In this document: in pieces, positions 13,416 through 30,192 of the stretch
Layout: each line of letters begins with the position of its first letter
Numbering within the stretch: position 1 is the stretch's first letter
Source of the DNA: Kitasatospora xanthocidica
GTDB lineage: Bacteria > Actinomycetota > Actinomycetes > Streptomycetales > Streptomycetaceae
Direction of reading: 5' to 3'
Assembly: GCF_014656195.1 (NCBI RefSeq)
Contig: NZ_BNBY01000003.1
Coordinates: forward strand, 124,001 to 188,000
Length of the DNA: 64,000 bases
Notes under the pieces: model-generated
What the model was told of the DNA's origin: nothing
Database searches by the model: none
The model's input: the letters and a program-made list of their open reading frames with translations, nothing else
Position numbers and translations under genes: made by a program

Positions 13416-13417
13416 GG

Positions 13418-14731
13418 TCAGGTCACCTCCTGTGTGCGGTCCCGACGCGGGTTACGTCGGCGCGGGACCGCGAGTGTGGTCGGCGGCGTGGCCGCGGCGG
13501 GTGTGGCGAGCAGCGAGGCGGCCAGGGCCAGGTGCAGCAGGTAGGGCGAGGCGTCGCCGAGCCCGGCCTCGGTGTACGAGGAGATCGCGACGTAGCTGAT
13601 CAGGAAGATCGCGCAGGCCCGCTCCAGCGAGGGCGGGCGCAGCAGGGCGACGCCGCCCAGCGCCAGGAGGATCGCGGCCACCAGGCCGATGCCGACCAGG
13701 CCCTGCTCGTTGTAGACGGCCAGCCAGCTGTTGTCGATCGGCAGTCCGCCGAAGGACTTGTCGCCCAGGCCGATGCCGAAGGCCTCTTCGGGGATGGTCC
13801 GGGGCTGGGTCAGCAGGGCGTCCCAGACCTTGGCCCGGCCGGTGAGGTTGGAGAAGTTCTCCTTGCTCTGGCCGCGCATGAACCAGGTCTGCAGCGCGCC
13901 GGCGAACGCCACCGCGGCGACCGTGGCCGTCACCAGCGCCCAGGTGAAGAAGCGGCGGGCGGCGGTGCTGGTCAGCAGGAGCGAGCCGATCGCCAGCGCC
14001 AGGCCGGCGAGCAGGCCGATCGTGGCCGTCCGGGTGTGGGTCATCGCGAGCAGCACGAAGGTCGGCACGATGACCATGGCCGCGCTCTTCCCGGTGGTCC
14101 GGCGGCCCAGCAGGAGCAGCACGGTGAGCCCGATGATCACCGCCGAGTACTGGCCGATCTGCGGCGGGGTGAGCGGCCACAGCGCGCCGACCAGCCGCCC
14201 GCCGTAGTACTCGGGCATGGCCGTGCCCGGGGAGATGACCAGGCCGGCGGCCACCGACCAGAGCACCGCGTAGTACATCCGGATGTGGGTGCGGACGAGC
14301 CGGAAGCTTCCGTCCCACCAGCGGCTGATCAGCCACAGGGTGGTGATGAAGATGGCCAGCCGGGTGCAGCGGAACAGCGCGCCGAGGCCGACCTCCAGCT
14401 TCAGGCTGGAGATCAGGCTGGGCACCAGCAGCAGGGTGAGCAGGGTGAGGAAGGCGCCGGGCCGGACGCGCAGCCGGGGGTTGAGCAGGAGGGCCAGCGC
14501 GAACGCGGAGACCAGCGCGCCCATGGTGGCCATCTGGATGAGCGAGCGGGGCAGCCGGACGACGGTCTTCGCCCCGGCGGAGCCGAGCGTGTTGAGGCCC
14601 AGCAGCGCCCAGACTATCCAGACGGCCTTCGGCGTGGCGTCGGGGCGTCCTTCGGCTCCGGCCGGCGTGACCGCCGTGCCCGTTCCGTCCGCCGGCGCGC
14701 CGCGAAGCGGGGCCCCGCCCATCTCAACCAC
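13418..14731 (-). CDS. Wzy-like O-antigen polymerase/ligase family membrane protein
   Basis: A 437-residue polytopic protein with about ten hydrophobic helices and a periplasm-side loop at about 260-310 (QTWFMRGQSKENFSN followed by GRAKVWDAL). That loop resembles the Wzy_C segment containing a conserved R-x-x-x-W signature. The low similarity typical of polymerases makes this a topology-and-context call. Together with the flippase and two Wzz-like proteins it completes a Wzx/Wzy-dependent assembly set. The start overlaps the upstream beta-helix gene by 8 bases. An O-antigen ligase function is the alternative. Confidence 0.75.
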   Translation of the reverse strand: MVEMGGAPLRGAPADGTGTAVTPAGAEGRPDATPKAVWIVWALLGLNTLGSAGAKTVVRLPRSLIQMATMGALVSAFALALLLNPRLRVRPGAFLTLLTLLLVPSLISSLKLEVGLGALFRCTRLAIFITTLWLISRWWDGSFRLVRTHIRMYYAVLWSVAAGLVISPGTAMPEYYGGRLVGALWPLTPPQIGQYSAVIIGLTVLLLLGRRTTGKSAAMVIVPTFVLLAMTHTRTATIGLLAGLALAIGSLLLTSTAARRFFTWALVTATVAAVAFAGALQTWFMRGQSKENFSNLTGRAKVWDALLTQPRTIPEEAFGIGLGDKSFGGLPIDNSWLAVYNEQGLVGIGLVAAILLALGGVALLRPPSLERACAIFLISYVAISSYTEAGLGDASPYLLHLALAASLLATPAAATPPTTLAVPRRRNPRRDRTQEVT

Positions 14732-16253
14732 CGGCCTTGGTGGTGGCGAAGGTGCTGCCGGTGTCCTGCCGGTACGGCGTGCCCTGCCACTGCCCGGAGT
14801 CGAGCGGGCGGCCCGGGTCGTCGGCGACGAAGGTCCACGGGCCGCGGTAGACGTTGTCGTGCCAGCGGTTGTCCTGCTTGAGGGTGATCGCCTCGGCGAC
14901 CCGCTTGCCCATGTACGGCGACCAGTCCGGGTAGGTGCCGTAGTTGGAGAGCACCGCCATCCGGCCGCAGTCCACGGTGCACTTGACGACGGAGGTGTCG
15001 AGGGCGAAGCGGTTGTCGTGGATGTCGACCCGCTGGGTCTTCCACCGGCAGTCGGAGTAGAGCGGCGGGGTGTCGATCGCCGGTTTCACGCAGCGGCCGG
15101 GGTCCTTCACCAGCAGGGTGCAGTAGCCGGTCGAGGTGTTGGCCGGGCTGTTGCAGAACCGGTCGGCGTTCTCCCAGAGGGTGATCCCGGACCAGTTGTC
15201 CTCCAGCGTGTTCCGGTAGATCTCGATCCGGTCCGTGCGGGCGGGGACCCGGGGTTCGCCGCCGGCCTCCGACAGGTAGACGGCCGCGTGCGGGAAGTCG
15301 TCGCCGTCGGCGGCGTGCCGGCGGCCCTCGACCCAGTTGTTCCGCCGGACCGTGTTGTTCCGGATGACGGCGTTGTAGCTGGTCTCGTAGATCAGCGCGG
15401 CACCGTCGTTGGCCTCCAGCACGTTGTTCTCGATCAGGAAGTCGTTGTTGTCGTTGTCCGCCCACAGCCCGGTGCCGCGGTTGTCGTGCACCCAGTTGCC
15501 GCGGATGTCGGCGCCGTCGACGGCCCAGAACTTGACGCCGCCGGTGCAGCCGCAGCCGGGCTGGCGCCGCTCCCAGTCGTCGGTGTTGTTGCCCGTGATC
15601 TCGTTGCCCTCGACCAGCAGGCCCTTGATGGAGTCGCCGGTCTTGTACGCGTTCATGCCGTACTGGCCGTTGTCGCGCAGGCAGCTGGCGCGGACCTGCT
15701 GGCGGGCGCCGGCCATCAGCCCGGCGCCGGAGTTGCCCTGGATCGTCGCGTGCTCGATCACCCACCCGTCGGCCATGTCGTGGTTGACCACGCCCTCGTC
15801 GTGCGGCGCGACGAAGCCCTGCACGGTCAGGTAGCGGATGGTGACGTCCGGGGCGGTGCCGCTGAACGCGTAGTTGTTGGTCTTCCGGCCGTCGAGCACC
15901 GCGCCCGGCGCGCCGAGGTAGGTGTCCCCCTCCTTGGTCATGACCTGGGCGTAGCGGTCCGGTTCGAGGGTGTGGGTGCCCGGGGCCAGCCAGAACGTGG
16001 TGTGCGGAGGGCTGTTCCTGGTCTTCGCGGCCAGGTCGTTGACGACCGCCGGGTCGACCGTCACGGCGCCGGGCGGCGCGGCGGCCGGCCCGGCCGGGGG
16101 CTCGGCGCACACCCGGGCCGCGGCCACCGGTGCGGTGGGCGGGGCGGTCGGCTCCGCCGGGGAGTCCGACCCGCTCGTACAGCCGGTCGTCACCAGCAGG
16201 GCGAGCGTCAGCACCGCCGCCGACGCCCACCGGTAGCTCCCGGTGATCCCCAT
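14724..16253 (-). CDS. Right-handed beta-helix lipoprotein
   Basis: A 509-residue protein with a lipoprotein signal peptide (LALLVTTGC, Cys25) followed by an A/P-rich linker. A long run of parallel beta-helix repeats then shows the ladder N-N-x-x-x-N and G-x-G-L (IEGNEITGNNTDDW, GNWVHDNRGTGLWADNDNN). The start is the ATG after AGGTGG; a second in-frame ATG 18 bases upstream is the alternative. Secreted beta-helix proteins in polysaccharide operons act as lyases, C5-epimerases or hydrolases. The AlgD-like gene in the same operon makes a mannuronan-type substrate possible. The catalytic residues could not be assigned. Confidence 0.75.
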   Translation of the reverse strand: MGITGSYRWASAAVLTLALLVTTGCTSGSDSPAEPTAPPTAPVAAARVCAEPPAGPAAAPPGAVTVDPAVVNDLAAKTRNSPPHTTFWLAPGTHTLEPDRYAQVMTKEGDTYLGAPGAVLDGRKTNNYAFSGTAPDVTIRYLTVQGFVAPHDEGVVNHDMADGWVIEHATIQGNSGAGLMAGARQQVRASCLRDNGQYGMNAYKTGDSIKGLLVEGNEITGNNTDDWERRQPGCGCTGGVKFWAVDGADIRGNWVHDNRGTGLWADNDNNDFLIENNVLEANDGAALIYETSYNAVIRNNTVRRNNWVEGRRHAADGDDFPHAAVYLSEAGGEPRVPARTDRIEIYRNTLEDNWSGITLWENADRFCNSPANTSTGYCTLLVKDPGRCVKPAIDTPPLYSDCRWKTQRVDIHDNRFALDTSVVKCTVDCGRMAVLSNYGTYPDWSPYMGKRVAEAITLKQDNRWHDNVYRGPWTFVADDPGRPLDSGQWQGTPYRQDTGSTFATTKAGG

Positions 16254-16285
16254 CCGCCCCACCTGCCTCATCCCTACCCGTCGCA

Positions 16286-18244
16286 CTAGCCGCGGAACCC
16301 GAGCACGGTGGTGAACCCCTGCCCGCCGTCGGTGAAGCCGGTGCCGACCAGCGTGGTGGCCGGCTCCTTGCGTCCGAAGCCGGCCGAGTACCAGCCCAGC
16401 GGCGGTCCGGTCTCGCCGCGGTGCGCCCGCCAGGTCAGCTGCCCGGGCAGGTCGAGCACCGCCGAGCGGTCCCGGCCGTCCCCGGTCCAGGTGAGCACGG
16501 CCCGGTTCCCCGTCAGGTCCGCGGTGACCGCCGGGCCGAGGTGGAACGCCAGGCGTACCGCCCGGCGCGGGCCGCTCACCTCGTCGAGCACCCGCAGCTC
16601 CCGGCTCGCGGCGACCAGTTCCACCCGGCGGCGGTGCACCGACGGCCGGTAGCCGTCGTGCTCGGCGCACCAGCGGGACACCGCCTCGCCGGAGGTGTCG
16701 GCGACCAGGACGCGGCTGCGGGCGTGCCGGGTCCACAGGAACGGCCCGCCGGAGACGGACTGGTCCTCGCCGTCCAGCTCCAGGGTGTTGTGGCCCGGCG
16801 TCGACCGGAAGTAGCGCCGCCACTCGGGCTGCCCGTGGTAGCAGTACGTCCCCGGGTCCGCGAGCACGTCGACGCCGTCCTGCCGCACCTCCAGGGAGAG
16901 CGCGTCCGCGTGGCCGTGCGCGGCGATGGACAGGAACCCGTGCGGACCGCCGTCGCAGCGGCACCAGATCCCGTCCGGGCCGCGCAGCACCGTCAGCCCC
17001 GCGTCGGCGAAGTGGGCCCGCCGGCGCGCCGGGCGGGTCACCGCCGGTGTGCTGCCCGGCTTCCCGTACGGCTTCAGGAGCGCGGCCAGCAGCGGGGTGC
17101 GGACGTCGGTGCCGGTCACCTCCGGCCACCAGGCGAGCCGGCCGAACACCGCCTCCCCGGTGGCCAGCAGCGAGGCCCAGCGGTCGGTGCCCGCGCCGTC
17201 CACGACCAGACCGTGCCCGTCGTCCGCGTCGCCCTGGCGCGGCGGCCGCAGCCGGTCGTCCACGACGGCGGCGAGCGCGTCGGTCATCCGCAGCAGGACC
17301 AGCCGGACCGTCCTGGGGACGGGGACGGCGGCGGCGTCCGCCTCGGCCACCGCGGCCAGGCCGAGTTCCAGGACCAGTCCGTGGTACTCGGTGGCCAGTT
17401 CGCGGTTGAGGCCGGAGGGGAAGGTGTTGCCGCGCAGGTGCCGCTCCAGCGACCGCAGGGCGCCCGCCCGCCAGCGCGCCGAGGAGGGGAACCAGTCGAA
17501 CGCGCAGGCCGCGGCGAGCTGTCCGGCAGCCTCGGCGATGACGTGGTTGTTCGCCGAGGACCCCCGGCTGGGGAAGGCGGCCAGCCAGCGCTGGTGGTGC
17601 CAGATCTGGTCCAGCGCCTCCGGGTTCTCCTCGAACAGTCCGGCGGCGCCCGGCCAGCCGTCGAGCAGCCGGCGGATCCACACCCAGGACAGCAGCCGGA
17701 TGCCCAGCTCGATGCCGCTGATCCAGTGCACGCCGCGCAGCGGCGGGTTGGCCGTCCACCAGGACCGCAGGTGCGCGGCGACGCGCTCGGCGTACCGCTC
17801 GTTCCCGGTGACGGCGTAGGCGGCGGCGAGCACGGTCAGGTACTGGTGCCGGGACGGCTCCCAGATCTGCTTGATGTCGCCGACCGCGTCCTCGTCCCGG
17901 TACGGCACGTCGAAGGCGTAGCCGGCCGGGGCCCGGCGCCCGGTCTTCGGGTCGCGCCACCAGTCCGGGGCGGCCAGGTCCGCGCGCTCCACCCCGAAGA
18001 ACTCGGCGTGCCCGTCCATCAGCCGGTCCGCCGCGGCGACGAGCCGTTTCGCGGCGTCCGGCGGCACCGCGGCGATCGTCCCGGCGGGCAGCACGGCGGT
18101 GAACCGGGCGCCGGTCACGACCGGGCGCTCCGGCGGCGCCGACCGCCACCGCCGCCTGCGCAGCGTGTCGCCCACCCGGCCGCCGACCTCCCGCGGTCCC
18201 ATCCGGGACAGCCGCCGCAGGTACCAGCCCGCGCTCATGGTCAT
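16286..18244 (-). CDS. Heparinase II/III-fold polysaccharide lyase-like protein
   Basis: A 652-residue protein. An N-terminal toroid domain contains SSANNHVIAEAAG and ATEYHGLVLEL, and a beta-sandwich domain follows starting near AAHGHADALSLEV. The Asn-His, Tyr and His residues in these segments match the catalytic set of heparinase II/III and related alginate lyases, which cleave uronic-acid polymers by beta-elimination. No clear signal peptide is seen at the N-terminus (WYLRRLSRMGPREVGGRV), so location is uncertain. The first of two nearby ATGs is used because it overlaps the upstream stop (ATGA). A role in trimming or turnover of the polymer is inferred. Confidence 0.82.
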   Translation of the reverse strand: MTMSAGWYLRRLSRMGPREVGGRVGDTLRRRRWRSAPPERPVVTGARFTAVLPAGTIAAVPPDAAKRLVAAADRLMDGHAEFFGVERADLAAPDWWRDPKTGRRAPAGYAFDVPYRDEDAVGDIKQIWEPSRHQYLTVLAAAYAVTGNERYAERVAAHLRSWWTANPPLRGVHWISGIELGIRLLSWVWIRRLLDGWPGAAGLFEENPEALDQIWHHQRWLAAFPSRGSSANNHVIAEAAGQLAAACAFDWFPSSARWRAGALRSLERHLRGNTFPSGLNRELATEYHGLVLELGLAAVAEADAAAVPVPRTVRLVLLRMTDALAAVVDDRLRPPRQGDADDGHGLVVDGAGTDRWASLLATGEAVFGRLAWWPEVTGTDVRTPLLAALLKPYGKPGSTPAVTRPARRRAHFADAGLTVLRGPDGIWCRCDGGPHGFLSIAAHGHADALSLEVRQDGVDVLADPGTYCYHGQPEWRRYFRSTPGHNTLELDGEDQSVSGGPFLWTRHARSRVLVADTSGEAVSRWCAEHDGYRPSVHRRRVELVAASRELRVLDEVSGPRRAVRLAFHLGPAVTADLTGNRAVLTWTGDGRDRSAVLDLPGQLTWRAHRGETGPPLGWYSAGFGRKEPATTLVGTGFTDGGQGFTTVLGFRG

Positions 18245-20439
18245 CGCGTCCTCGCCAGGGTCACCGGCGCGCCGCCGGCCAGGGCGGTCGGCACGGCGAG
18301 GGTGGCCGCCGTGGTGGCGACCAGCGACTCCAGCGGCACCGGCATCGGGCCGCCGGTCCGTACGGCCTTGACGAACGCGGCCAGTTCGGCGGACTGGCCC
18401 TTGTCCCGGGCCTTGGGCAGCCGCGAACTGACCCACCGCTCGGGGCCGTGCACCGAGGCGCGGACGAAGTCGTCGAGCTTCAGCACCTTCCCGTCCGCGA
18501 CCAGGTCCAGCGTCTCCTTGGGGAAGCCGGGGGCGCCGGTGGTGACGTAGCTGATGGTGGCGGTGGAGCCGTCCGGGTAGCGCAGCACCACCTGGAGGTC
18601 CTCGTTGCCCGCCGTGGCGACCGCGTACACCGAGACCGGGTCGGCCTCCAGCAGCCAGCTCGCGGTGTCGATGAAGTGCCCGCCCTCGCCGGCGAACCGG
18701 GAGCCCTCCGTACCCTGCCGGAGGTACCAGCTGCCGTGCTGCAGCCGGCCCGCGTTGACCAGGTAGCGCAGGCTCGCCGGGCCGGTCCGGACGCCGAGCC
18801 GGCTCTTCGCCTGCCGCAGCAGCGGCGCGAACCGGCGGTTGAAGCCCACCTGCAGGCGGTCGTTGCCGGACTCCTCCACCGCCGCGAGCACGCTCGCCAG
18901 TTCGTCCTCGGTGAGGGCCAGGGGCTTCTCCACGAACACCGTCTTGCCGGCGAGCAGCGCCTGCCGGGTCAGTTCGGCGTGCGAGCTGTGCCGGGTGACC
19001 ACGAACACCGCGTCCACGGACGGGTCCCCGAGCACCGCGTCGAGGTCGGTGGTCGCCCGGGCGAAGCCGAACTTCCGCTGGGCGTTGGCGGCGGACAGCG
19101 CGGTCGTGGTGACGACGGTGGACAGCGTGACGCCGGCGCGCTGCGCCAGGTGCGGCAGCAGCATCGAGCCCGCGTAGTTCCCGGCGCCGATGAACGCCAG
19201 CCGCACCGGCGCGTTCACGGGCCGGGCCGGGGTGGCCGCGGTGCCGGTGCGGCGCACCGCGGGCACCGCCACCTCCGGGGCCTGCGCGGCCCGTTCCGGC
19301 TCCCCCTCCCCGGCCGGCCCGGGGTAGCGGAACAGCACGGCGACGGCCTTGAGTTCGCCGTCCTCGAGCCGCCGGTACGTCTCGACGGCGTCCTCGAACT
19401 CGGCCACGTGGGAGACCAGCGGGTCCACGTCGACGCGGCCGCGGGCCAGCAGGTCGAGGAAGCACGCCAGGTTGCGGCGCTCGGTCCAGCGCACGTAGCC
19501 GATCGGGTAGTCCCGCCCGTCCAGCTCGTACTCGGGGTCGTAGCGCCCGGGGCCGTACGAGCGGGAGAACCGGACGTCCAGCTCCTTCTCGTAGTACGCG
19601 TTCCACGGCAGGTCCAGGCGGCACTTGCCGATGTCGACGACCCGGCCCCGGTCCCGGGCCAGGTGGGCGGCCAGCTCGACCGGCTGGTTGCTGCCGCCGC
19701 CGGCCGCCAGGTACACCTGGTCCACGCCGTGGCCGCCGGTCAGCTCGGCGACGGCGGCCTCCACGGCCGCGGCCCCGGGGTCACCGCAGGCCACCGCGCC
19801 CAGGCGCTGGGCGAGTTCGCAGCGCGCCGGGTCCGGGTCGGCCCCGACCACCCGCACCCCGGAGGCGGTGAGGAGCTGCGCCACCAGCTGCCCGATCAGC
19901 CCGAGGCCGATGACCAGCGCCACCTCGCCGAGCTGCGGCTCGCCCTGGCGCAAGCCCTGCAGCGCGATGGACCCGACGGTGCCGAAGGCCGCGTGCCGAG
20001 GCGCGAGGCCGTCCGGCACCGGGGTGTAGAGGTTCTTCGGCACCCAGTTCAGCTCGGCGTGCAGCGCGTGCTCGTTGCCGGCGCAGGCCACCAGGTCGCC
20101 GACCTTCACGTCGTCGATCCCGGCACCGACCTGCTCGACCACGCCGCACAGCGAGTAGCCCAGCGGCGTGTAGGAGTCCAGCTTGCCCATCACCTTGCGG
20201 TAGGTGGCGGGCAGCCCGTTGGTGGCCACGCTCTGCATGACCTTGGCCACCTGGTCCGGACGGGAGCGGGCCTTGCCCAGCATCGACATGCCGGCCTCGG
20301 ACACCTTCATGAGCTCGGTCCCGGTGGATATCAGCGAGAAGGCGGTGCGGACCAGCACACCGCCCGGCTTGCACCCCGGTACCGGCACGTCGAGCACCGC
20401 CAGCTCGCCGCTCTTGTAGTTCTGCACAACCTGCTTCAC
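18241..20439 (-). CDS. Bi-domain oxidoreductase (medium-chain dehydrogenase plus Gfo/Idh/MocA)
   Basis: A 732-residue fusion. Residues 1-370 form a medium-chain alcohol dehydrogenase with NAD(P) motif VIGLGLIGQLVAQLL. Residues 400-732 form a Gfo/Idh/MocA dehydrogenase starting AFIGAGNYAGSML, with the signature EKPLALTEDEL. The same fusion is common in capsule and exopolysaccharide clusters next to heparinase II/III genes, exactly as here. Its reaction is unproven; oxidation or reduction of a nucleotide sugar is likely. ATGA overlap couples it to the lyase gene, and a 61-base gap separates it from asnB. Confidence 0.88.
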   Translation of the reverse strand: MKQVVQNYKSGELAVLDVPVPGCKPGGVLVRTAFSLISTGTELMKVSEAGMSMLGKARSRPDQVAKVMQSVATNGLPATYRKVMGKLDSYTPLGYSLCGVVEQVGAGIDDVKVGDLVACAGNEHALHAELNWVPKNLYTPVPDGLAPRHAAFGTVGSIALQGLRQGEPQLGEVALVIGLGLIGQLVAQLLTASGVRVVGADPDPARCELAQRLGAVACGDPGAAAVEAAVAELTGGHGVDQVYLAAGGGSNQPVELAAHLARDRGRVVDIGKCRLDLPWNAYYEKELDVRFSRSYGPGRYDPEYELDGRDYPIGYVRWTERRNLACFLDLLARGRVDVDPLVSHVAEFEDAVETYRRLEDGELKAVAVLFRYPGPAGEGEPERAAQAPEVAVPAVRRTGTAATPARPVNAPVRLAFIGAGNYAGSMLLPHLAQRAGVTLSTVVTTTALSAANAQRKFGFARATTDLDAVLGDPSVDAVFVVTRHSSHAELTRQALLAGKTVFVEKPLALTEDELASVLAAVEESGNDRLQVGFNRRFAPLLRQAKSRLGVRTGPASLRYLVNAGRLQHGSWYLRQGTEGSRFAGEGGHFIDTASWLLEADPVSVYAVATAGNEDLQVVLRYPDGSTATISYVTTGAPGFPKETLDLVADGKVLKLDDFVRASVHGPERWVSSRLPKARDKGQSAELAAFVKAVRTGGPMPVPLESLVATTAATLAVPTALAGGAPVTLARTR

Positions 20440-20500
20440 CGAAGTCCCCTTGTTCTCTCCGCCGTCTTGCTCTCTACGCCGTCGCCCGGGCCCCGCGCCG

Positions 20501-22450
20501 TCAGGAAGGTGCCGCGGCCCCGCCGGAAGTCACGCCGGAGGCCCCGCCGGAGGTCACTCCGCGGTACCAGTACTCCAGCGTCAGCACGTGCCACAGGTGC
20601 TTGGAGAAGTCCTGCTGCCCGGCGGCGTCCTCGGCGGCCAGCCGCGCCAGCGCGTCCCGGCGCAGGAACCCGGAGCGGACCAGCTCGCCGTCGTTGATCA
20701 CCTCGCGCACCAGGGGTGCCAGGTCCCGGCTCATCCAGGCCCGCAGCGGGGCGCTGAACAGGCCCTTGGGCCGGTAGACGATCTGCCGGGGCAGGACCGA
20801 GGTGGCCGCCTCCTTGAGGACGGCCTTGCCCTGCCGTCCGACGATCTTGCGGTCGCCGGGCACCGCGAACGCCGCCCTGACCACCTCGACGTCCACGTAC
20901 GGCACCCGCACCTCGGTCGACGCCGCCATGCTCGACCGGTCGGTGTACGCGAGGTTCAGGCCCGGCAGGAACATCCGGGCGTCGCCCAGGCACATCCGGT
21001 TGACGAAGTCGTCGAGGTCGTTGTCCCGGTACACGTCCGCGTGCTCGGTCAGCACGTCCTGGACCGTCCCGGCCAGGTCCGGATCGACCAGGGCGAGCAG
21101 GTCCTCCCGGTCGTACATGGTGTAGCTGCGCCGGAACGCGGTCTCCTCCGGCAGGTCGGCGAAGGAGAGGAACCGCTTCGCGAACCGCACCGACCGGAAC
21201 CCCCGGCTGGCCGTGGCGACCGGCAGCCGGTCGACGGCCGCGGACAGGCCGCGCCGCAGCGGCCGCGGGACCCGCTGGTAGCGCAGCGCCAGCTGATTGG
21301 CCAGGTGCTTGCGGTAGCCGGCGAACAGCTCGTCGGCGCCCATGCCCGAGAGCATCACCTTGACCCCGGCCTCCCGGGCGGCCGAGCAGATCAGGAAGGT
21401 GTTGATCGCGGCCGGGTCGCCGATCGGCTCGTCCAGGTGGTACGTCATCCGCGGCAGCAGGTCGAGCACGTCCGGGGCGATCTCGATCTCGTGCAGGTCG
21501 ACGCCGAACCGCTCGGCCACCTGCCGGGCGTAGCGCAGGTCGTCCGGCATCGCCTCGAACCTGGCGTCCTCGGCCCGGAACCCGATCGTGTAGGCGGAGA
21601 TCCCGGGGTGGTCACGGGCCGCCAGCGCGGTCAGGTAGCTGGAGTCCAGCCCGCCGGAGAGGAAGGTCGCCACGGGGACGTCGGAGAGCAGGTGACGGCG
21701 GGTCGAATCCTCCACGACGGCGGCGATGTCCGGCAGTTCGCCGGCCAGGGCCCGCTCCCGGCCCTCGGCGGCGACCTCCCGCAGGTGCCAGAACCGGCCG
21801 CGCTCCACCCGGCCGTCGGGCCGGCACCGCAGCCAGCTCCCCGGCGGCAGCTTCTCCGCCCCGCGGAGCGCGCACCGCGAGTCCGGCACCCAGTAGTACA
21901 GCAGGGAGGCCACCATCGCGCCGTGGTCCACCTCCAGCGACCCGCCGGTCGCGGCGGCCAGCGCCTTGAGCTCGGAGGCGAACACCAGGCCCTCGCCGCG
22001 CCGGACCAGGAACAGCGGCTTGATGCCGAGCTGGTCGCGGGCGAGCACCAGTTCACCGGTCCGCTCGTCGAAGATCCCGAACGCGAACATCCCGCGCAGC
22101 CGGGGCAGGCAGTCCGTGCCCCAGCGCCGCCAGGCCTCCAGCAGCACCTCGGTGTCGGAGGTGCCGCGGAAGCGCACCCCGGCGGCCGACAGTTCGGCCC
22201 GCAGCTCGGGCGCGTTGTACAGCTCGCCGTTGTACGTCAGGACCAGGCCGTCCGAGACCATCGGCTGGGCGCCGGTCTCGGACAGGTCGACGATGGCCAG
22301 CCGGCGGTGCCCCAGCTGCACCTCGCCGTCGCCGAGGGAGTGGCCGTACCGGCCCGACCCGTCCGGACCGCGGTGGGCGAGGGTGTCGGTGAGCAGGTCG
22401 GTCACGACCTTCCCGTCCGGCCATCGGTACGCGCCTGCGATGCCACACAT
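20501..22450 (-). CDS. asnB: Glutamine-hydrolysing asparagine synthase family amidotransferase
   Basis: A 649-residue AsnB-family protein. The processed N-terminal nucleophile follows the initiator Met (MCGIAGAYRW, Cys2). The glutaminase domain ends near residue 200. The synthetase domain carries the ATP pyrophosphatase P-loop FLSGGLDSSYL at about 260-270. In polysaccharide clusters such proteins amidate uronic-acid carboxyls or other carboxylates, a known role of WbpS in Pseudomonas O-antigen synthesis. The AlgD-like dehydrogenase in the operon would supply a uronic acid. A normal asparagine-making role cannot be excluded. It begins 3 bases after the Wzz-like gene. Confidence 0.88.
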   Translation of the reverse strand: MCGIAGAYRWPDGKVVTDLLTDTLAHRGPDGSGRYGHSLGDGEVQLGHRRLAIVDLSETGAQPMVSDGLVLTYNGELYNAPELRAELSAAGVRFRGTSDTEVLLEAWRRWGTDCLPRLRGMFAFGIFDERTGELVLARDQLGIKPLFLVRRGEGLVFASELKALAAATGGSLEVDHGAMVASLLYYWVPDSRCALRGAEKLPPGSWLRCRPDGRVERGRFWHLREVAAEGRERALAGELPDIAAVVEDSTRRHLLSDVPVATFLSGGLDSSYLTALAARDHPGISAYTIGFRAEDARFEAMPDDLRYARQVAERFGVDLHEIEIAPDVLDLLPRMTYHLDEPIGDPAAINTFLICSAAREAGVKVMLSGMGADELFAGYRKHLANQLALRYQRVPRPLRRGLSAAVDRLPVATASRGFRSVRFAKRFLSFADLPEETAFRRSYTMYDREDLLALVDPDLAGTVQDVLTEHADVYRDNDLDDFVNRMCLGDARMFLPGLNLAYTDRSSMAASTEVRVPYVDVEVVRAAFAVPGDRKIVGRQGKAVLKEAATSVLPRQIVYRPKGLFSAPLRAWMSRDLAPLVREVINDGELVRSGFLRRDALARLAAEDAAGQQDFSKHLWHVLTLEYWYRGVTSGGASGVTSGGAAAPS

Positions 22451-22453
22451 GTC

Positions 22454-23983
22454 CTACCTCGCCTCCTGGTCGCTGTCCGGGACCCGTGCGGTCCACATCG
22501 GTCGTCGCTCCGTCCGCCGCCGACCCGTCCCGTTCTGCCGGGCCGTCCGCTCGGTGCGGCCGGCCGCGGGGATGCGCGGCCCGTCCCAGAGCGTGCCGTC
22601 GGTCCGGTCCCCCGGATCGGGGTCGATCAGCACCACGCCGATCACCGGAATGTCCTGGTCGGCGAGTTGCCGCGCCACGGTGTGCAGCCATGCGGCGCTG
22701 CCGTGCCCGGCCCGTACCACGAGCACGGTCCGGGTGCCGAGGTGGCGCAGGTCGGTCCAGGCCGTGCCGGGTGCCACCGAGCCGACGCCGAGCCGGAGTT
22801 CCTGACCGGCGGTGGCCGCGGCCGAATCGTCGGCGACCACGGTCGGGTCCCCCGGCTGCGGGCGGCGCTTGGCGAGCTGCGGGCCGGGCAGACCGTCGAC
22901 GACCACCACCGGCCCCTGCTCCCCCAGCTCCCGGCCGAGGTCCAGGGCGATCGCGCCGACGCTTCCCGCGCAGCCCAGTTCGAGCAGCGACACCGGCTCC
23001 GCGGAGCCGCGTACGGTACGGGCCAGGGTCGTGGTGAGCCGCGTCCGGGCCGCTCGGGCCCGCCGGCCCCGCAGCCGGCCGGCCGACCGGCGGGGCAGGC
23101 CGCGCAGCTCCGCGATGACGGAGGCGCCGAGGTTCGCCGCGATGTCCCGGCGCAGCACCGGGCGGTCCGCCACCACCGCGCCGACCGCGGCCCAGGTGAT
23201 CCCGAGGACGAGCCCGAGGACGAGCCCGATCGCGGCGTCGGTGGCGGCGGTCTTCGGCAGCGACTGCCGCACCGCGTGCGGGGCGTCGACGATCTGGGTG
23301 CCGGCGACGAGCCGGGGCGTGCCGACCCGCGCCGCGGCGGCGCGCTGGCCGAACTCGGTGATCCGCGAGGTGAGGTCGGCCCGGCTGGAGTAGAGCGACT
23401 CCAGGTTCGCCGAGCCCTTCGGTCCGCTCTGCTGCGGTGCGTCCCCGATCGCCGCGTTGATCTGGGCGAGCTCCTCCCGCATCCGGTCCCGCTGGTCGAG
23501 CAGCGCCTTGGCCTCGGCGTCCGCGGCTTCCTGGATCCGCCGGACGTGGTCCGCGACGAAGGCGTCGGCCAGCGCCTTGGCGCGGGCCACCGCCTCCGCG
23601 TCGCTGGGGCCCTTCACGTCGATCTCCAGCAGGTTGTTGGTCAGGCCGACGCCCGCGTACTCCGTCATGAAGTCCTCCGGCTTCTCCGAGGAGCCGAGGG
23701 ACTGCAGGGCCTTGGCGGCGATCCCCGTGGTCTGCAGCACGGCGACGTCGGTGCGGATCAGCGTCCCGGAGTCGTTCGGCTGGTCCGCCTCGTGCGCGAC
23801 CAGCAGCTTGACCACCGCGCTCGGCGGCGGCGGCTTCAGCACGGCCACCGCCGCGCCGAGCAGCAGCCCGATCAGCGCCATGGCGCACCACAGCCGGCGG
23901 CGCCTGCGCACCGCGGCCACCAGCGCCTGCAGGTCCAGGAGCGGGGCGGCGGCCGGCGGCTCCGTTGTCGTGGTCGTCGTCAC
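22454..23983 (-). CDS. Wzz-like chain-length protein with degenerate kinase tail (copy 1)
   Basis: A 509-residue protein with GTG start (GTGA overlap) and a run of six Thr at the N-terminus. TM1 is at about 32-50 and TM2 near 270-290 (IGLVLGLVLGITWAAVGAVV). Between them an extracytoplasmic region carries coiled-coil heptads (about 160-230), the Wzz/CapA layout. The cytoplasmic tail resembles a tyrosine autokinase Rossmann fold. The P-loop position reads GCAGSVGAIALDLGREL, lacking the GKS/T lysine, and the following acidic motif is VVVVDGLPG. No C-terminal tyrosine cluster is visible. It is probably a scaffold or regulator rather than an active kinase. Confidence 0.78.
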   Translation of the reverse strand: MTTTTTTEPPAAAPLLDLQALVAAVRRRRRLWCAMALIGLLLGAAVAVLKPPPPSAVVKLLVAHEADQPNDSGTLIRTDVAVLQTTGIAAKALQSLGSSEKPEDFMTEYAGVGLTNNLLEIDVKGPSDAEAVARAKALADAFVADHVRRIQEAADAEAKALLDQRDRMREELAQINAAIGDAPQQSGPKGSANLESLYSSRADLTSRITEFGQRAAAARVGTPRLVAGTQIVDAPHAVRQSLPKTAATDAAIGLVLGLVLGITWAAVGAVVADRPVLRRDIAANLGASVIAELRGLPRRSAGRLRGRRARAARTRLTTTLARTVRGSAEPVSLLELGCAGSVGAIALDLGRELGEQGPVVVVDGLPGPQLAKRRPQPGDPTVVADDSAAATAGQELRLGVGSVAPGTAWTDLRHLGTRTVLVVRAGHGSAAWLHTVARQLADQDIPVIGVVLIDPDPGDRTDGTLWDGPRIPAAGRTERTARQNGTGRRRTERRPMWTARVPDSDQEAR

Positions 23984-25341
23984 CCGGCCGCTCTCCTCGT
24001 GTCGTCGCCGCCCACGAGCACCGGCTCGGGCACGTCCGGACGGGTGTCGGCGGAGCGCGTCGGACGGTCCCGGACCAGGTCGGCGACGACCACGCCGACC
24101 ACCTCCTGCCCGGCCTCCGCACACGCCCCGGCGATGCCGGCGAGCTCGGCCGCGGTCCGGCTGCCCGCGCTGAGCACGACCAGCACGCCGGACTCGTCCT
24201 CGCGGTCGGGCAGCAGCGGCCGGGTCACCGACACCTCCACCACCCGCAGCAGCGGCTCGCCGTCCGCCTCGGCGGCGAGCCGTTCGGCGGCCCGGCGGGC
24301 CGGCCCGTCCCCGTCCGGGACGACGACCAGCAGCCGGCGGGAGGCCGGCAGCCGCTCCCGGAGGCGGGCGCAGACCCGCCGGTAGCGGACGCGCCGGCCG
24401 GCCTCGTCGCCGGAGGCGTGCGGGACCGGCAGGTCCCACCGGGTGTCGAGGCCCAGCAGCCGGCGGACCAGGGCCCGCGGGCCGCGGTCCCGGGCCGCCT
24501 TCGCGGACCGTTCGGCGGTGACGTCGACGGTGCCGAGGAGCACCGAGCCCAGCGCCGCGGCGGTCTCCGGTTCGGTGCGCAGCCGCCGGCTCGTCCGGGC
24601 GGCGGTGAGGTGGCCGATGATCCCGAGCAGGAGGGCCACCAGCGCCCCGCCCGCGACGAGCTGGATCCTGGTCGGCGCCGCCTGGCCGGTCGGCCGGGCC
24701 GCCGACCCCATGACGACCATGGACTTGTTGGCGGACGGGTCGGCCTGGTCCAGCTTCTTGACGGCGTCCTGCAGCGCGGTGCGCAGCTTCTCCAGTTCGG
24801 TACGGGTCTGCACGCTGTCCATGCCCTGTCCCGGGGCGGCCGCGTCGGCCAGCTCGGTGATCCGGCGGCTCGCCTGCGCCACCAGCTGCCGCAGCGCCTC
24901 GGGCTGCGCCGCCTCGGGGTCGGTGCCGTCGCCCGCGATCCGGGCGGCGAAGGTGACGAACTGCCGGGCCACCTGGTCGGAGAGCTGCTGCGCGCGCTCC
25001 GGGGTCTCGGCGGTGCCCGAGATCTTGATGATGTTCCCGTCCGCCGCCGTGGCGGTCACCCGGTCCCGCAGGTCGCTGCCGCTGACCCCGGACCAGCCGA
25101 GCGTGGCGGCCACCCGGTCGATCACCACCGAACTGGACGCGATCTCCGCCTGGGTGAGCAGCTCGCGCTCCTGCCACGCCCCCGGCAGCAGCACCGACGC
25201 CGAGGTCGTGTACTGCGGCGGGAACAGCGCGGAGCCCCCGTAGCCGGCGAGCGCGCCCACCACCGCGAGGACGGTGAGCAGCCGCCAGCGCCGGCGCAGG
25301 ATCCGGCCGATCGTGGCCAGGCGTATCGTGTCGTCGTTCAA
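23980..25341 (-). CDS. Wzz-like chain-length protein with degenerate kinase tail (copy 2)
   Basis: A 453-residue protein from a TTG start that overlaps the upstream GT4 stop (TTGA). TM1 is at about 20-37, followed by a Wzz-type region (QYTTSASVLL), coiled-coil heptads at about 130-190, and TM2 near 223-242 (LVAGGALVALLLGIIGHLT). The tail keeps an autokinase-like lead-in (YRRVCARLRERLPASRRLLVVV), but the P-loop position is PDGDGPARRAAERLA, with no GKS/T. The two adjacent Wzz-like proteins are clearly different sequences, so a recent duplication is unlikely; they may form a hetero-oligomeric co-polymerase. Confidence 0.76.
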   Translation of the reverse strand: MNDDTIRLATIGRILRRRWRLLTVLAVVGALAGYGGSALFPPQYTTSASVLLPGAWQERELLTQAEIASSSVVIDRVAATLGWSGVSGSDLRDRVTATAADGNIIKISGTAETPERAQQLSDQVARQFVTFAARIAGDGTDPEAAQPEALRQLVAQASRRITELADAAAPGQGMDSVQTRTELEKLRTALQDAVKKLDQADPSANKSMVVMGSAARPTGQAAPTRIQLVAGGALVALLLGIIGHLTAARTSRRLRTEPETAAALGSVLLGTVDVTAERSAKAARDRGPRALVRRLLGLDTRWDLPVPHASGDEAGRRVRYRRVCARLRERLPASRRLLVVVPDGDGPARRAAERLAAEADGEPLLRVVEVSVTRPLLPDREDESGVLVVLSAGSRTAAELAGIAGACAEAGQEVVGVVVADLVRDRPTRSADTRPDVPEPVLVGGDDTRRAAG

Positions 25342-26618
25342 CGGAGCGGCCTTCTCCCCGCCCGCTTCCGGCCGCGCGCCGCCACCGGGGCCCGGTCGCC
25401 GCAGGCCGCGGCGTAGGCGGCGAGCAGCGCCCGCTGGGAGTTCCGCCAGGACAGCGGCCCGTTGACCCGCTCCTGGCCGAGCTTGCCCATCCAGGCCCGC
25501 TTGTCCGGGTCGTCCAGCAGCTGCGCGATCAGCCCGGCGAACCCGCTCTCGTCGTTGGCGGGCGCGTAGACGGCGGCGTCCCCGGCGGAGACCCGGGCCT
25601 CGCGGAGGTCGAAGGAGACCATCGGCCGACCCATCACCATGTACTCCAGGACCTTGTTCATGGTCGACACGTCGTTGAGCGGGTTGCGCGGGTCCGGGGA
25701 GAGGCAGACGTCCGCCGTGGACAGGTAGCGCGCCAGGTCGGCGTCCGGGACGCGCCCGGTGAACTGCACCTGCTCCGAGAGCCCGAGCCGCCCCGACAGC
25801 TCCACCATCGCGTCGAAGGTGTCGCCGCCGCCGACGAACACCGCGTGCCAGTCGGTCCGGCCGAACTCGTCGCGCAGCTTCGCGAGCGACCGCAGGGCGT
25901 AGTCGACGCCGTCCTGCGGACCCATGACGCCCAGGTAGCACAGCAGATGGGGCTTGCCGCGCTTGAGCTCCGGCTCGGGCGGCACCGGCTGGAAGCGGTC
26001 GGTGTCGGGCGCGCTGCGCACCACGAAGACGTCCTCCGGCCGCTTGCCGCCGCGGCGCAGCGCGACGTCCCGGTAGCTCTCGTTGGTGGCGAGCACGATG
26101 TCCGCGGCCCGGTAGGTGAGCCGCTCCAGCGCGCACACGGCGCGGTAGAGCAGGTCCTCGCCGCGGTCGAACCGGGAGAGGTACAGCTCGGGGACCAGGT
26201 CGTGCTGGTCGAACACGAACCGGGCACCGCGCCGCTTCAGCCACAGGGCGGGCAGGAACAGCAGGTCGGGCGGGTTGCAGGCGTGGACCACGTCGACCGG
26301 GCCGACCTGGCGGGCCAGCCGGGCCGTGTGCCACAGCGCCGATCCGTACTCCCGCAGGTAGCCGGCCGGTCCGCCGGTGGCCGCGTGCAGGGGGTAGCGG
26401 TGGATCCGCACCCCGTCGATCACCACCTCCCGTTCGGTGTCCCGCTTGCTGCCCAGGGGACAGATGACGTCCACCGTCCAGCCCGCGTCGCGCAGCGTGG
26501 TGCACTCCTGCCACACCCGCCGGTCGAAGGGCACCGACAGGTTCTCCACCAGGATCAGCGCGCGACGGGCCGGCCCGTCGCCGCCGACCGCGGCGCTCGA
26601 CGACGCGTCACCAGGCAA
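25338..26618 (-). CDS. Glycosyltransferase family 4
   Basis: A 426-residue GT-B enzyme. The N-terminal segment LILVENLSVPFDRRVWQECTTL is the usual opening of the WcaI/ExpE-type GT4 group, and the C-terminal donor domain includes LCYLGVMGPQDGVDYALRSL and KVLEYMVMGRPMV. It likely adds the second or third sugar of the repeat unit. It overlaps the upstream dehydrogenase gene by 11 bases. Its N-terminal 15 residues are Ser/Ala/Gly-rich and may not be structured; an internal start was considered but no better ribosome site was seen. Confidence 0.86.
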   Translation of the reverse strand: MPGDASSSAAVGGDGPARRALILVENLSVPFDRRVWQECTTLRDAGWTVDVICPLGSKRDTEREVVIDGVRIHRYPLHAATGGPAGYLREYGSALWHTARLARQVGPVDVVHACNPPDLLFLPALWLKRRGARFVFDQHDLVPELYLSRFDRGEDLLYRAVCALERLTYRAADIVLATNESYRDVALRRGGKRPEDVFVVRSAPDTDRFQPVPPEPELKRGKPHLLCYLGVMGPQDGVDYALRSLAKLRDEFGRTDWHAVFVGGGDTFDAMVELSGRLGLSEQVQFTGRVPDADLARYLSTADVCLSPDPRNPLNDVSTMNKVLEYMVMGRPMVSFDLREARVSAGDAAVYAPANDESGFAGLIAQLLDDPDKRAWMGKLGQERVNGPLSWRNSQRALLAAYAAACGDRAPVAARGRKRAGRRPLR

Positions 26619-27924
26619 GGCCCACGTACCCCGGTTCGGTCCGGCGCGCGTCGGCGTCGGGCAGGTGGACGAGGTCGACGATCACCGTGCCGTCGCCGTG
26701 CGGCAGCGCGGCCAGCACGGCCGGGTCCGCCGTCCCGACCACGCACACCTCGGCGTGGTCGAGCACCTCGTCGACGGAGTCCGTGAGCAGCTGCGCGAGG
26801 TGCGGCAACCGGGTCTCGATGTACTCGCGGTTCGCGCCGAGCAGCCGGGAGAGGTTCACGTTGGGGTCGTGGATCCGCAGGTCGTAGCCCTTGCCGAAGA
26901 GCCGCTCGGCCAGCTCGACGAGCGGGCTCTCGCGGAGGTCGTCGGTGCCGGGTTTGAAGGACAGGCCGAACAGGCCCACCCGCCGCTTCCCGGTACGCTC
27001 GATCAACTCCAGTGCGCGCCCCAGGTGTTCGGCGTTGGAGGGCAGCACGTGGGAGAGGATGGGCACCGCGACGTCGGCCTGCCGGGCCGCGTGGACCAGG
27101 CTGCGCAGGTCCTTGGGCAGGCAGGAGCCGCCGAAGGCGAAGCCGGGCCGCAGGTAGGCGGGGCTGATGTTCAGCTTGCGGTCGGCCAGGAACACGTCGA
27201 TCACCTGGTGCGAGTCCACCCCGAGCGCCCGGCAGACCGCGCCCAGCTCGTTCGCGAAGCCGATCTTGAGACCGTGGAACGCGTTGTCCGCGTACTTGAT
27301 CGCCTCGGCCGTCGGGACCGGCACCCGGAACACCTCGCCGGGCAGGCCGTCGTACAGCGCGGCGACCACGTCCCCGCTCGCGGCGTCGAGCTCGCCGATG
27401 ACGGTCTTGGGCGGGTCGAAGAAGTCCCGCACGCTGGTGCCCTCGCGCAGGAACTCCGGGTTGACCGCGACCCCGAAGTCCACCCCGGCGGTGCCGCCGG
27501 TGTGCTTCTCCAGGATCGGCACCAGCAGGTTCAGGCAGGTGCCCGGGAGCATGGTGCTGCGGAAGACGACGGTGTGCCGCCCGCCCCGCTCGGCCAGCGC
27601 GGCGCCGATCTGCTCGGCCACCCGCTCCAGGTAGGCGGTGCAGAGGCTCCCGTTGGGCTCCGACGGCGTGCCCACGCAGACCAGCGACACGTCGCTGGCC
27701 ATGACCGCCTCGCGGACGTCGGCGGTGGCGCGCAGCGCTCCGGCCGCCACCACCTCGGCGATCAGCTCGCCGATCCGCTCCTCGACCACCGGGGCCTTGC
27801 CGTCGTTGACCAGGTCGACCTTCACCTGGTTCACGTCCACTCCGATGACCTCGTGACCGAGGCCGGCCAGGCACGCGGCCGACACGCAGCCCACGTAGCC
27901 GAGCCCCAGGACGCTGATCCTCAT
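26608..27924 (-). CDS. GDP-mannose 6-dehydrogenase (AlgD-like nucleotide-sugar dehydrogenase)
   Basis: A 438-residue protein beginning MRISVLGLGYVGCVSAACL. The catalytic cysteine is C268 in FGGSCLPKD, the same residue number as in Pseudomonas AlgD. Other AlgD-like blocks are VNPEFLREGTSVRDF, PPKTVIGELD and KLNISPAYLRPGFAF. The enzyme oxidises a nucleotide sugar at C6 to the uronic acid with two NAD; the AlgD resemblance favours GDP-mannuronate, with UDP-glucuronate the alternative. The ATG start has GGGAGG 9 bases upstream; the open frame extends further but lacks coding character. It would feed the uronic acid that the lyase-like and AsnB proteins could modify. Confidence 0.88.
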   Translation of the reverse strand: MRISVLGLGYVGCVSAACLAGLGHEVIGVDVNQVKVDLVNDGKAPVVEERIGELIAEVVAAGALRATADVREAVMASDVSLVCVGTPSEPNGSLCTAYLERVAEQIGAALAERGGRHTVVFRSTMLPGTCLNLLVPILEKHTGGTAGVDFGVAVNPEFLREGTSVRDFFDPPKTVIGELDAASGDVVAALYDGLPGEVFRVPVPTAEAIKYADNAFHGLKIGFANELGAVCRALGVDSHQVIDVFLADRKLNISPAYLRPGFAFGGSCLPKDLRSLVHAARQADVAVPILSHVLPSNAEHLGRALELIERTGKRRVGLFGLSFKPGTDDLRESPLVELAERLFGKGYDLRIHDPNVNLSRLLGANREYIETRLPHLAQLLTDSVDEVLDHAEVCVVGTADPAVLAALPHGDGTVIVDLVHLPDADARRTEPGYVGLAW

Positions 27925-28018
27925 GACTCGTTCCTCCCCTCCGGCAGGCCCTTGTGGCCGGCCCTCCGCGCGCCCATCGGACGACGCCCCCCTCGTCGGT
28001 TCCTTCGCGTCCTTCGCA

Positions 28019-29548
28019 TCAGTACGCCCCCTGGCCCTGGAGCACCGCACGCAGCGTCTTCCAGAGGATCACCGTGTCCAGGGCGAGCGACCAGTCCTCC
28101 ACGTACCGCAGGTCCAGCCGGACCGCCTCCTCCCACGGCAGGTCGCTGCGCCCGCTGATCTGCCACAGGCCGGTGAGCCCGGGCTTGACGAGCAGCCGCC
28201 GCCGGATCTCCGGGCCGTACGCGGCGGACTCCTCCGGCAGCGGCGGCCGCGGGCCGACCAGCGACATCGAGCCGGTGAGCACGTTGACGAGCTGCGGGAG
28301 CTCGTCGAGCGAGTACCGGCGCAGCACCCCGCCCACCCGGGTCACCCGCGGATCCCGGCGGAGCTTGAACAGCAGTCCGGCGCCCTCGTTGCGGTCGGCC
28401 AGTTCGGCCCGGGCCCGGTCCGCCCCGGCGACCATGGTGCGGAACTTGACCAGGGTGAACTCCCGGCCGTCCTTGCCCACCCGGTGCTGCCGGTAGAACG
28501 CCCCGCCCCTGCTGTCCAGCAGCACCAGCAGCCCGACGCCCACCATCAGCGGCGCGAACAGCACCAGCAGGAAGGCGGCGCCCAGCCGGTCGACGACCTC
28601 CTTGACCGCCCGGCGGCCGCCGGTGAAGGCCGGCATGCTGACCCGCAGCATCGGGATCCCGAGCACCGCGTCGACGTGCAGCCGCGGGCCGGCCACCTCC
28701 ATCAGCACGGGCGCGACGACCATCTCGGCGTCGCCGCCTTCGAGGTCCCAGGCCAGCCGCTGCAGCCGGTCCGGCGTCCAGTACGGGTCGGGGGTGATCG
28801 CGAGAACGCGGTAGCCGTCCCGGCGGACGTGGGTGGCGACGTCCGTCAGCCGGCCGACGACCGGCACGCCGTAGAGCCGGTCACCGCCCAGCCCGAGGGC
28901 GTACGGCGTGCAGACCGCCTCCACCCGCCAGCCGAGGTGCGGGAACTTGCGGGTCCGGGTGATCAGGTCGCGCACGGTGGCCGGGCTCCCGGCGGCGAGC
29001 ACCGGGCGCAGGCACCGCCCTTCCTTGCGCTGTTTGTGCAGCCACAGCCGCAGCAGATAGCGCTCGGTCATGGTGACGAGCGTGATCGCCGGAATGGCGA
29101 CGAAGATCCAGAGTTTGATGTTGTGCGAGGTGAGGGCGATTCCGCCGAGTGCGAGGACGACGGCCGCCGTGAACAGCGAGCGGCCGAGCCGCCGGAATTC
29201 CTCGGCACCCTGGCCGAGAACGGCCGGGGCCCACGACCGGGTCATGCCGAGTGCCCCCACCACCAGCAGTTCGGTGCCGAAGGCGAGAATTCCCCATTTC
29301 TCGTGCCAGCTGGCCGCGTCCCGGACCCCGAAGAATCCGCCGATGGCCGCTACCACGAACGCGGTGGCCACGGTGTCACTGATGATCACGGTACGGCGGT
29401 ACTGCTGCTCCCAGTCGCTCTCGGGCCGGCCGAGCGACCCGTTCCCCCGACGCCCCCGCGCCGGTCGAAACGGGACGGCTAACTCTCCTTCCCCCTGCTC
29501 CACGGCCCCCGTCAAGTCACCAGTGGGTTCGACGTGTTCGCTCCACAC
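28019..29548 (-). CDS. Initiating phosphoglycosyltransferase (WcaJ/polyprenyl glycosylphosphotransferase family)
   Basis: A 509-residue protein, first gene of the operon. Four or five membrane helices fall within about residues 45-165, then a CoA-binding-like region, then the C-terminal Bac_transf domain. Domain signatures are HRVGKDGREFTLVKFRTM, RRYSLDELPQLVNVLTGSMS, VGPRPPLPEE and KPGLTGLWQISGRSDL. The family moves a sugar-phosphate from a nucleotide sugar to undecaprenyl phosphate, starting the repeat unit. Start: GTG five bases after GGGGGGAGG. The frame stays open about 107 codons upstream through hairpin repeats and low-complexity sequence that do not look coded. Confidence 0.9.
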   Translation of the reverse strand: MWSEHVEPTGDLTGAVEQGEGELAVPFRPARGRRGNGSLGRPESDWEQQYRRTVIISDTVATAFVVAAIGGFFGVRDAASWHEKWGILAFGTELLVVGALGMTRSWAPAVLGQGAEEFRRLGRSLFTAAVVLALGGIALTSHNIKLWIFVAIPAITLVTMTERYLLRLWLHKQRKEGRCLRPVLAAGSPATVRDLITRTRKFPHLGWRVEAVCTPYALGLGGDRLYGVPVVGRLTDVATHVRRDGYRVLAITPDPYWTPDRLQRLAWDLEGGDAEMVVAPVLMEVAGPRLHVDAVLGIPMLRVSMPAFTGGRRAVKEVVDRLGAAFLLVLFAPLMVGVGLLVLLDSRGGAFYRQHRVGKDGREFTLVKFRTMVAGADRARAELADRNEGAGLLFKLRRDPRVTRVGGVLRRYSLDELPQLVNVLTGSMSLVGPRPPLPEESAAYGPEIRRRLLVKPGLTGLWQISGRSDLPWEEAVRLDLRYVEDWSLALDTVILWKTLRAVLQGQGAY

Positions 29549-29583
29549 GATTCCTCCCCCCGGGAGGCTCGCGCCTCCCGCAC
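29512..29583 (-). CDS. Possible 23-residue leader ORF overlapping the first gene of the operon
   Basis: A GTG at 29581-29583 follows GGGGAGG with a 5-base gap and opens a 23-codon frame (VREARASRGEE...) ending TGA at 29512-29514. It overlaps the start of the phosphoglycosyltransferase gene in another frame. It is created by the middle copy of the leader repeat, in which hairpin, Shine-Dalgarno and GTG recur. Translation could expose or hide the downstream start, but there is no evidence beyond the sequence. It may be no more than a by-product of the repeat. Confidence 0.25.
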   Translation of the reverse strand: MREARASRGEESCGANTSNPLVT

Positions 29584-30192
29584 TGATCCTCCCCTTCGGG
29601 AGGTCCCGCCTCCCCGACCGCGCTGTTCCTACCGCCGGGAGGCCCCCGCCTCCCGCGCATGGCGAACCGGCTCTTGCAGCGCTACGTGAACATCCCGCCC
29701 GGATCCCGGAGGACTCGTCCGTCCCACCGGAATCCCGCGTCACACGGGAAACCGCCGACGGCTGCTCTCCGTCTTCGAATTCCCCGCGCGGGCGCCGGAA
29801 ATCGATCACCCCACGCCTACCGCCGGAGACACGAAAACCACTGCCCGCGGCAATGGACCCGTAGATCATCGATCATCGCCGGCGCCCTGCCGTGCGAAGT
29901 GAAAGTCAATCTAGAGCATCCGGGGCACCGAAAGAGTGGGATGTGTGAAATGCGTGCACGAGATTTGAAAGTGGATCTACGAATGATGATCGTCGATGAA
30001 CACCACGGGAACGGCTGGATGCGCCGTGACCTGTACGGACGGCGCCCTCCGGGCGGAGCGGACCCGGGAAGTCCGCCGGCCGGAGGATCACCTTCGGAGG
30101 GCCGGATCCGGCCATCGGAAGGCTTGTCGTGACCGGTCCAGGACCCCGCGACGACGCGAACCGGATGCCCCGGTTCCGCGACCCCGTGCCGG
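29549..30192. other. Leader and promoter region of the polysaccharide operon
   Basis: No protein gene fits here. The left third (29549-29656) holds the hairpin repeats. The middle (about 29750-30000) has noticeably more A/T than the rest of the window and should contain the leftward promoter. TTGACT occurs on the minus strand near 29910-29915, but no convincingly spaced -10 box follows, so the start site is not called. Two GATC/ATGATC-rich palindromic patches (about 29865-29878 and 29983-29998) could be regulator sites. The region also follows, on the same strand, the end of the sensor phosphatase gene. Confidence 0.45.
29555..29655 (-). repeat. Three tandem hairpin units in the operon leader
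   Basis: Three 20-base inverted repeats lie at 29561-29580, 29597-29616 and 29636-29655. Outer arms in the first and third are CGGGAGGC and GCCTCCCG (perfect 8-base stems, 4-base loops); the middle copy keeps a 6-base stem GGGAGG/CCTCCC. Start-to-start distances are 36 and 39. On the transcribed (minus) strand each is followed by a purine tract: GGTAGGAA, GGGGAGGATCAGTG, and GGGGGGAGGAATCGTG, the last being the real ribosome site. The CCTCCC arm next to the real site can pair with either its own hairpin partner or the Shine-Dalgarno, suggesting a translational switch. Confidence 0.65.

Follow-up and report, generated by a model that had tools for sequence, protein, structure and literature searches.

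The stretch of DNA analysed here, 64 kb in length and referred to as the window, carries on its minus strand at 29549-29655 an array of three hairpins, each with a purine tract on its 3′ side, and downstream of the array lies a gene of the PF02397 (Bac_transf) family. Coordinates are given in Table 1, in which R1 is a covariance model of one ~36-nt unit of the array. A sequence-only reading of the window had described three 20-base hairpins, and all three are present, hairpins 1 and 3 with exact arms, but hairpin 2 falls short of that description and is weaker than its counterparts in relatives. The purine tract that was said to follow each hairpin on the transcribed strand was found in all three units. 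Two sites of the form GGGAGGC-N3-6-GCCTCCC occur in the window, compared to 0 in 100 shuffles, and 3 of the 22 sites of the form GGGAGG-N3-8-CCTCCC in the 9.27-Mb genome fall within the 93 bp of the array, indicating that the array is not due to chance.

Table 1. Features of the leader, the first gene and the operon, in the order of transcription
Feature	Position	Strand	Remarks
Conserved promoter-like block with TCTAGATTGA (29906-29915; CACACA...TCTAGATTGAC)	29906..29975	-	~370 nt 5′ of start
Conserved block immediately 5′ of array (GGGCGGGATGTTCACGTAGCGCTG...ATGCGC)	29656..29702	-	conserved in relatives
Unit 1 hairpin CGGGAGGC-GGGG-GCCTCCCG	29636..29655	-	8-bp arms; R1 match 52.3 bits
Unit 1 purine tract and junction GCGGTAGGAACAGCGCGG	29618..29635	-	AGGAACAGCGCGG conserved in relatives
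Unit 2 hairpin GGGAGG-CGGGA-CCTCCC	29598..29614	-	6 bp, 5-nt loop; R1 match 35.5 bits
Unit 2 purine tract GAAGGGGAGGATCAGTG	29581..29597	-	anti-SD duplex -11.5 kcal/mol
Unit 3 hairpin CGGGAGGC-GCGA-GCCTCCCG	29561..29580	-	8-bp arms; R1 match 47.1 bits
Unit 3 purine tract GGGGGAGGAATC, likely Shine-Dalgarno for GTG at 29548	29549..29560	-	anti-SD duplex -13.9 kcal/mol
GTG start candidate adjoining unit 3	29546..29548	-	5′ tract of Shine-Dalgarno form and spacing
Second in-frame GTG	29501-29503	-	internal start candidate
First gene, Bac_transf polyprenyl glycosylphosphotransferase	28019..29548	-	PF02397
Rest of polysaccharide operon, tightly packed	10905..28050	-	

The operon, its start codon and the upstream block

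The genes that follow the glycosylphosphotransferase encode a UDP-glucose/GDP-mannose dehydrogenase, a GT4 glycosyltransferase, a Wzz-like protein, an asparagine synthase and a heparinase II/III-like protein, and further a beta-helix protein, a Wzy_C-like protein, a GT4 and a methyltransferase. The 28 kb first proposed for this operon is an upper bound, as the genes are tightly packed from 29548 to ~10905 (18.6 kb), but gaps of 544, 172 and 358 bp then follow.

The sequence-only reading had assigned the last purine tract to the first gene as its actual Shine-Dalgarno. This is likely in the window genome, where GGGGGAGGAATC-GTG has the form and spacing of such a site, and in Kitasatospora and the S. 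noursei group the GTG next to the last tract keeps the frame of the gene. The assignment is not general, however: of 67 orthologues that could be scored, 29 have this GTG out of frame and 2 more have an in-frame stop behind it (31/67, about 45%). Reading then typically ends after 20 codons or immediately (GTG TGA), and in all these species the gene probably starts at the internal GTG, the counterpart of the second in-frame GTG of the window. In a series of loci (L059-L123), the DNA of the first ~20 codons of the orthologue, AGTGNNNGGCGAACACGTCGAACCACTGGGGACCTGGGGGGTTCTGTG, is highly conserved, while 1-nt changes close to runs of G place it in different frames in different species; this region could be an overlapping short ORF, a site of slippage or a second start. 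A TTA codon is present within the first 40 codons in 48 of 81 orthologues and at any later position in only 15, and the early TTA suggests developmental control by bldA.

Of 73 leaders, 66 carry the promoter-like block; its median distance upstream is ~360 nt, and the window has it at 370 nt. Given this conserved block upstream, transcription likely starts near it and the array is then likely transcribed. A search of the block for the sigma-70 consensus (-35) gave no match, and the block is possibly an activator-dependent promoter. Between the block and the array, at 29838-29856 on the minus strand, there is a terminator-like stem, CCATTGCCGCGGGCAGTGG, followed by TTTT.

Distribution and copy number of the unit among relatives

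Orthologues of the first gene were collected from genome contigs at 80 loci, mostly from Streptomyces plus Kitasatospora. In the 66 loci with full upstream sequence, R1 gave 156 matches, 154 of them no more than ~240 nt 5′ of the orthologue and all of these on the sense strand. Since 63 of the 66 Kitasatospora/Streptomyces loci were positive, the stems are conserved in related leaders; a lack of such conservation is what the sequence-only reading had named as evidence against itself. The number of R1 copies was one in 11 loci, two in 20, three in 27, four in 3 and five in 2, counts of which some may include marginal units. Units are spaced at mixed intervals, most of them 34-36 or 39-41 bp, with no fixed multiple of 3, which rules out a coding repeat, and 15 leaders from the same genus aligned well over the array (alignment A2). 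Two loci carry four- and five-unit arrays (L073, 2825-2981; L075, 2792-2981) in which several units have identical model scores, showing, on those scores, recent unit duplication and homogenisation.

In whole-genome searches with R1, a tandem array was found at the operon locus only, with E-values of 1e-8 to 1e-2 for the array and ~0.09 or weaker for the best match elsewhere. Among 101 genomes of the family, 17 had R1 matches at E <= 0.005, and the orthologue lay directly 3′ of the best match in 17/17. In one of the genomes (G160) a further, weak unit match lies off the operon contig, at 95684-95721 of contig 11 (E = 0.002). The unit being locus-specific in each genome searched, a dispersed or mobile (REP-like) repeat and a multi-operon regulon were ruled out, and by its distribution the array is a single-target cis element and not a dispersed repeat. 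The dehydrogenase and GT4 genes lie 3′ of the orthologue in 80/80 loci, whereas relatives have not retained the SpoIIE-type gene that the window has upstream, indicating that the leader travels with the operon.

Comparison with Rfam, including EAR/epsC, produced zero matches at gathering score and, for the leader, none at E-values up to 5, and the literature searched contained no description of this leader. Streptomyces leaders (e.g. L057 and L058) have another strong hairpin, likewise conserved, GGGGCCTTGGGTGC-gggga-GCACCCGAGGTTTC, ~150-230 nt 5′ of the start; it has paired changes between species and is apparently missing from the window.

Pairing in the conserved stem and the alternative folds

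Pairing was judged on 70 last units taken without selection for hairpins (alignment A4), this being the test relied on, since the units of alignment A3 had been chosen for having hairpins and its statistics are biased as a result. RNAalifold recovered the hairpin from A4 unaided. Against 500 shuffles, the hairpin pairing stood at 4/500 for cells paired and 8/500 for covariation, and it was above all slid controls on both measures. Most changes in the stem are one-sided (G-C/G-U or A-U/G-U) and two-sided compensatory changes are few, so that the covariation support for the hairpin appears real but modest. A fold across units, preferred by RNAalifold on A2, had no compensatory changes, as expected when units share arms, and was not counted as evidence.

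The kind of mismatch that the stem tolerates bears on the molecule involved. At stem position 4 the unselected count was 44 A-U, 52 G.U and 0 A.C, and summed over positions 1-6 there were 69 G.U and 0 A.C. Tolerance of G.U together with exclusion of A.C points to pairs in the sense RNA, such asymmetry being unexpected for an operator in the DNA or for antisense RNA, and on this pattern it is the sense transcript that is conserved. We therefore give very little credence to an array of DNA operators or a functionless minisatellite maintained by slippage, even though the inverted repeats are directly repeated and the near-identical units of the L073 and L075 arrays speak of recent duplication; besides the symmetry being that of RNA, the spacing is mixed and both hairpin and tract are retained from Kitasatospora to Streptomyces.

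The sequence-only reading had further proposed two mutually exclusive folds acting as a translational switch, in which the CCUCCC arm pairs either within its hairpin or with the Shine-Dalgarno. The alternative pairing, CCUCCC-GGG-GGGAGG, is geometrically present, but the switch itself was rejected on covariation and energy. The covariance comparison of related leaders, which that reading had put forward as a check, separated the two folds, as the hairpin covaries beyond shuffles and the arm/Shine-Dalgarno pairing does not (256/500 for cells paired and 334/500 for covariation on A4, with 87.0% paired compared to 86.9% in shuffles). Mean energies over 177 units were -14.6 kcal/mol for the hairpin, -7.9 for the alternative and -7.1 for composition-shuffled tracts, leaving the alternative ~7 kcal/mol weaker than the hairpin. 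In the window, a local energy comparison favours the hairpin in units 1 and 3 and the alternative in unit 2 only, and when the unit-3 fragment was extended, adding pairs from its flanks, both folds had equal energy.

Another form of switch would have the 5′ arm and the GGGG loop (GG-R-GG-C-GG-G-GG) form a two-layer G-quadruplex, with the freed CCUCCC capturing the downstream Shine-Dalgarno-like tract and shutting the unit. The consensus unit refolds exactly in this way when G-quadruplex energies are allowed (-28.9 vs -17.4 kcal/mol), the GGGG loop is present in most Streptomyces units and the quadruplex motif in 86 of 109 of them. The energy that the folding program assigns to a two-layer quadruplex is probably too favourable, however, and the arm/tract pairing that such a switch requires does not covary. 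The motif is also rare in Kitasatospora, occurring in 8 of 35 units there and in 0 of 15 last units, and in the window in unit 1 only, which means that it cannot be a mechanism common to both genera. We consider this switch quite unlikely, and it would be a long shot that the leader is a new modular class of leader RNA built of bistable hairpin/G-quadruplex units with anti-Shine-Dalgarno and Shine-Dalgarno mimics, whose copies (1-5) set the gain and threshold of translation of the exopolysaccharide operon.

A proposed role in ribosome loading and related systems

By its features the leader appears to be a control element not described before, with a probable role in how well the operon is translated. 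As the best explanation, put forward tentatively, we propose a tandem structured 5′ leader RNA of the exopolysaccharide operon made up of ribosome-loading tracts and hairpin insulators, with copy number acting as gain. Each unit is predicted to fold into a stable local hairpin that would bury CCUCCC, a mimic of the 16S anti-Shine-Dalgarno, while its AGGAGGAAC-like purine tract would stay single-stranded. The tracts would most likely serve as ribosome-loading sites from which 30S subunits reach the start codon behind the last unit; the hairpins would be insulators or barriers keeping CCUCCC away from the initiation site. Through a copy number of 1-5, evolution may then adjust the gain at which the pathway's first enzyme is made. 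Conservation, a sense-RNA stem, locus specificity and copy-number variation are observed; transcription of the array and its effect on translation are inferred.

The predicted duplex of tract and anti-Shine-Dalgarno has an energy of ~-9 to -10.5 kcal/mol vs -3.6 for random 13-mers of the window, an affinity that is mostly compositional, coming from the purines (last unit -10.1 vs -9.2 shuffled), and the tracts are predicted to be accessible. Internal tracts are mostly without a start codon. For the 31 orthologues whose GTG behind the last tract is out of frame or runs into a stop, the array would supply ribosomes to a short overlapping ORF or exert its effect from further away. Engineered leaders provide precedents for the parts of such a design, as multiple tandem ribosome-binding sites increase translation, up to six copies (PMC9723656), and so do bulky 5′ UTR structures plus a hairpin (PMC11087576).

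The units may alternatively be bound by an RNA-binding protein acting on this operon alone, at the level of translation or stability, with the logic of CsrA although not CsrA itself. The repeated hairpin with a GGA-containing linker resembles multi-site protein leaders. Tandem copies would provide avidity, and both the unit structure and the linker AGGAAC are conserved. A single unit locus per genome would, however, call for a dedicated single-target protein, making this reading rather unlikely. The sequence-only reading had held that Actinobacteria lack CsrA, and in agreement with this a search for it (PF02599) gave nothing in the window genome and matches in control genomes. CsrA/RsmA multi-GGA leaders are alike in that GGA recurs at several sites, with hairpins close to the Shine-Dalgarno, but in the array GGA is in the linker and not in the loops (GGGG, GGG, GCGA and similar), and there is a single target per genome; with no CsrA encoded and no GGA in the hairpin loops, control of this kind was ruled out.

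We regard as unlikely that the GC-rich hairpin stack is an mRNA-stability element that shields the long operon mRNA against decay in its 5′ region. The local hairpins are very stable by their mean energy and the operon is long and packed, but shielding explains neither the conserved purine tract and AGGAAC nor why the last unit sits right at the GTG.

Control of transcription elongation would be another possible use of a leader in front of a long polysaccharide operon, given that antitermination elements of the RfaH/ops, LoaP and EAR kind are found in or near the leaders of such operons (PMC2864571, PMC7858274). Processive antitermination of this kind is very unlikely here. The window genome has a single NusG-family protein without a specialised paralogue, ruling out the RfaH/LoaP route, and the array has no terminator-like site within it and no EAR/epsC match in Rfam. 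An intrinsic terminator or attenuator was ruled out as well, as purine tracts and not a U run follow the array hairpins. EAR/epsC RNA, JUMPstart/ops and LoaP leaders resemble the array as RNAs of long polysaccharide operons, located in the leader or within the operon, and differ from it in sequence and in partner protein, the array consisting of tandem hairpin/purine units.

The natural variation in unit number between species amounts to a dose series for studying how repeated ribosome-site/hairpin modules affect initiation. The conserved structured leader, absent from Rfam, precedes a widespread and apparently unstudied exopolysaccharide operon of Streptomyces and Kitasatospora, and leader control is poorly charted in the high-GC Gram-positives.

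Two further known systems come close to the proposed leader. Engineered multi-RBS leaders (PMC9723656) likewise place serial Shine-Dalgarno-like tracts before one gene, whereas the array is natural, has conserved hairpins between its tracts and mostly lacks start codons at the internal ones. Ribosome standby leaders such as that of tisB (PMC7708055) have a single-stranded tract beside a structure 5′ of the initiation site, an arrangement that is predicted for the array; the array differs in having 1-5 copies of its unit and a last tract that is itself at the start, with no pseudoknot shown.
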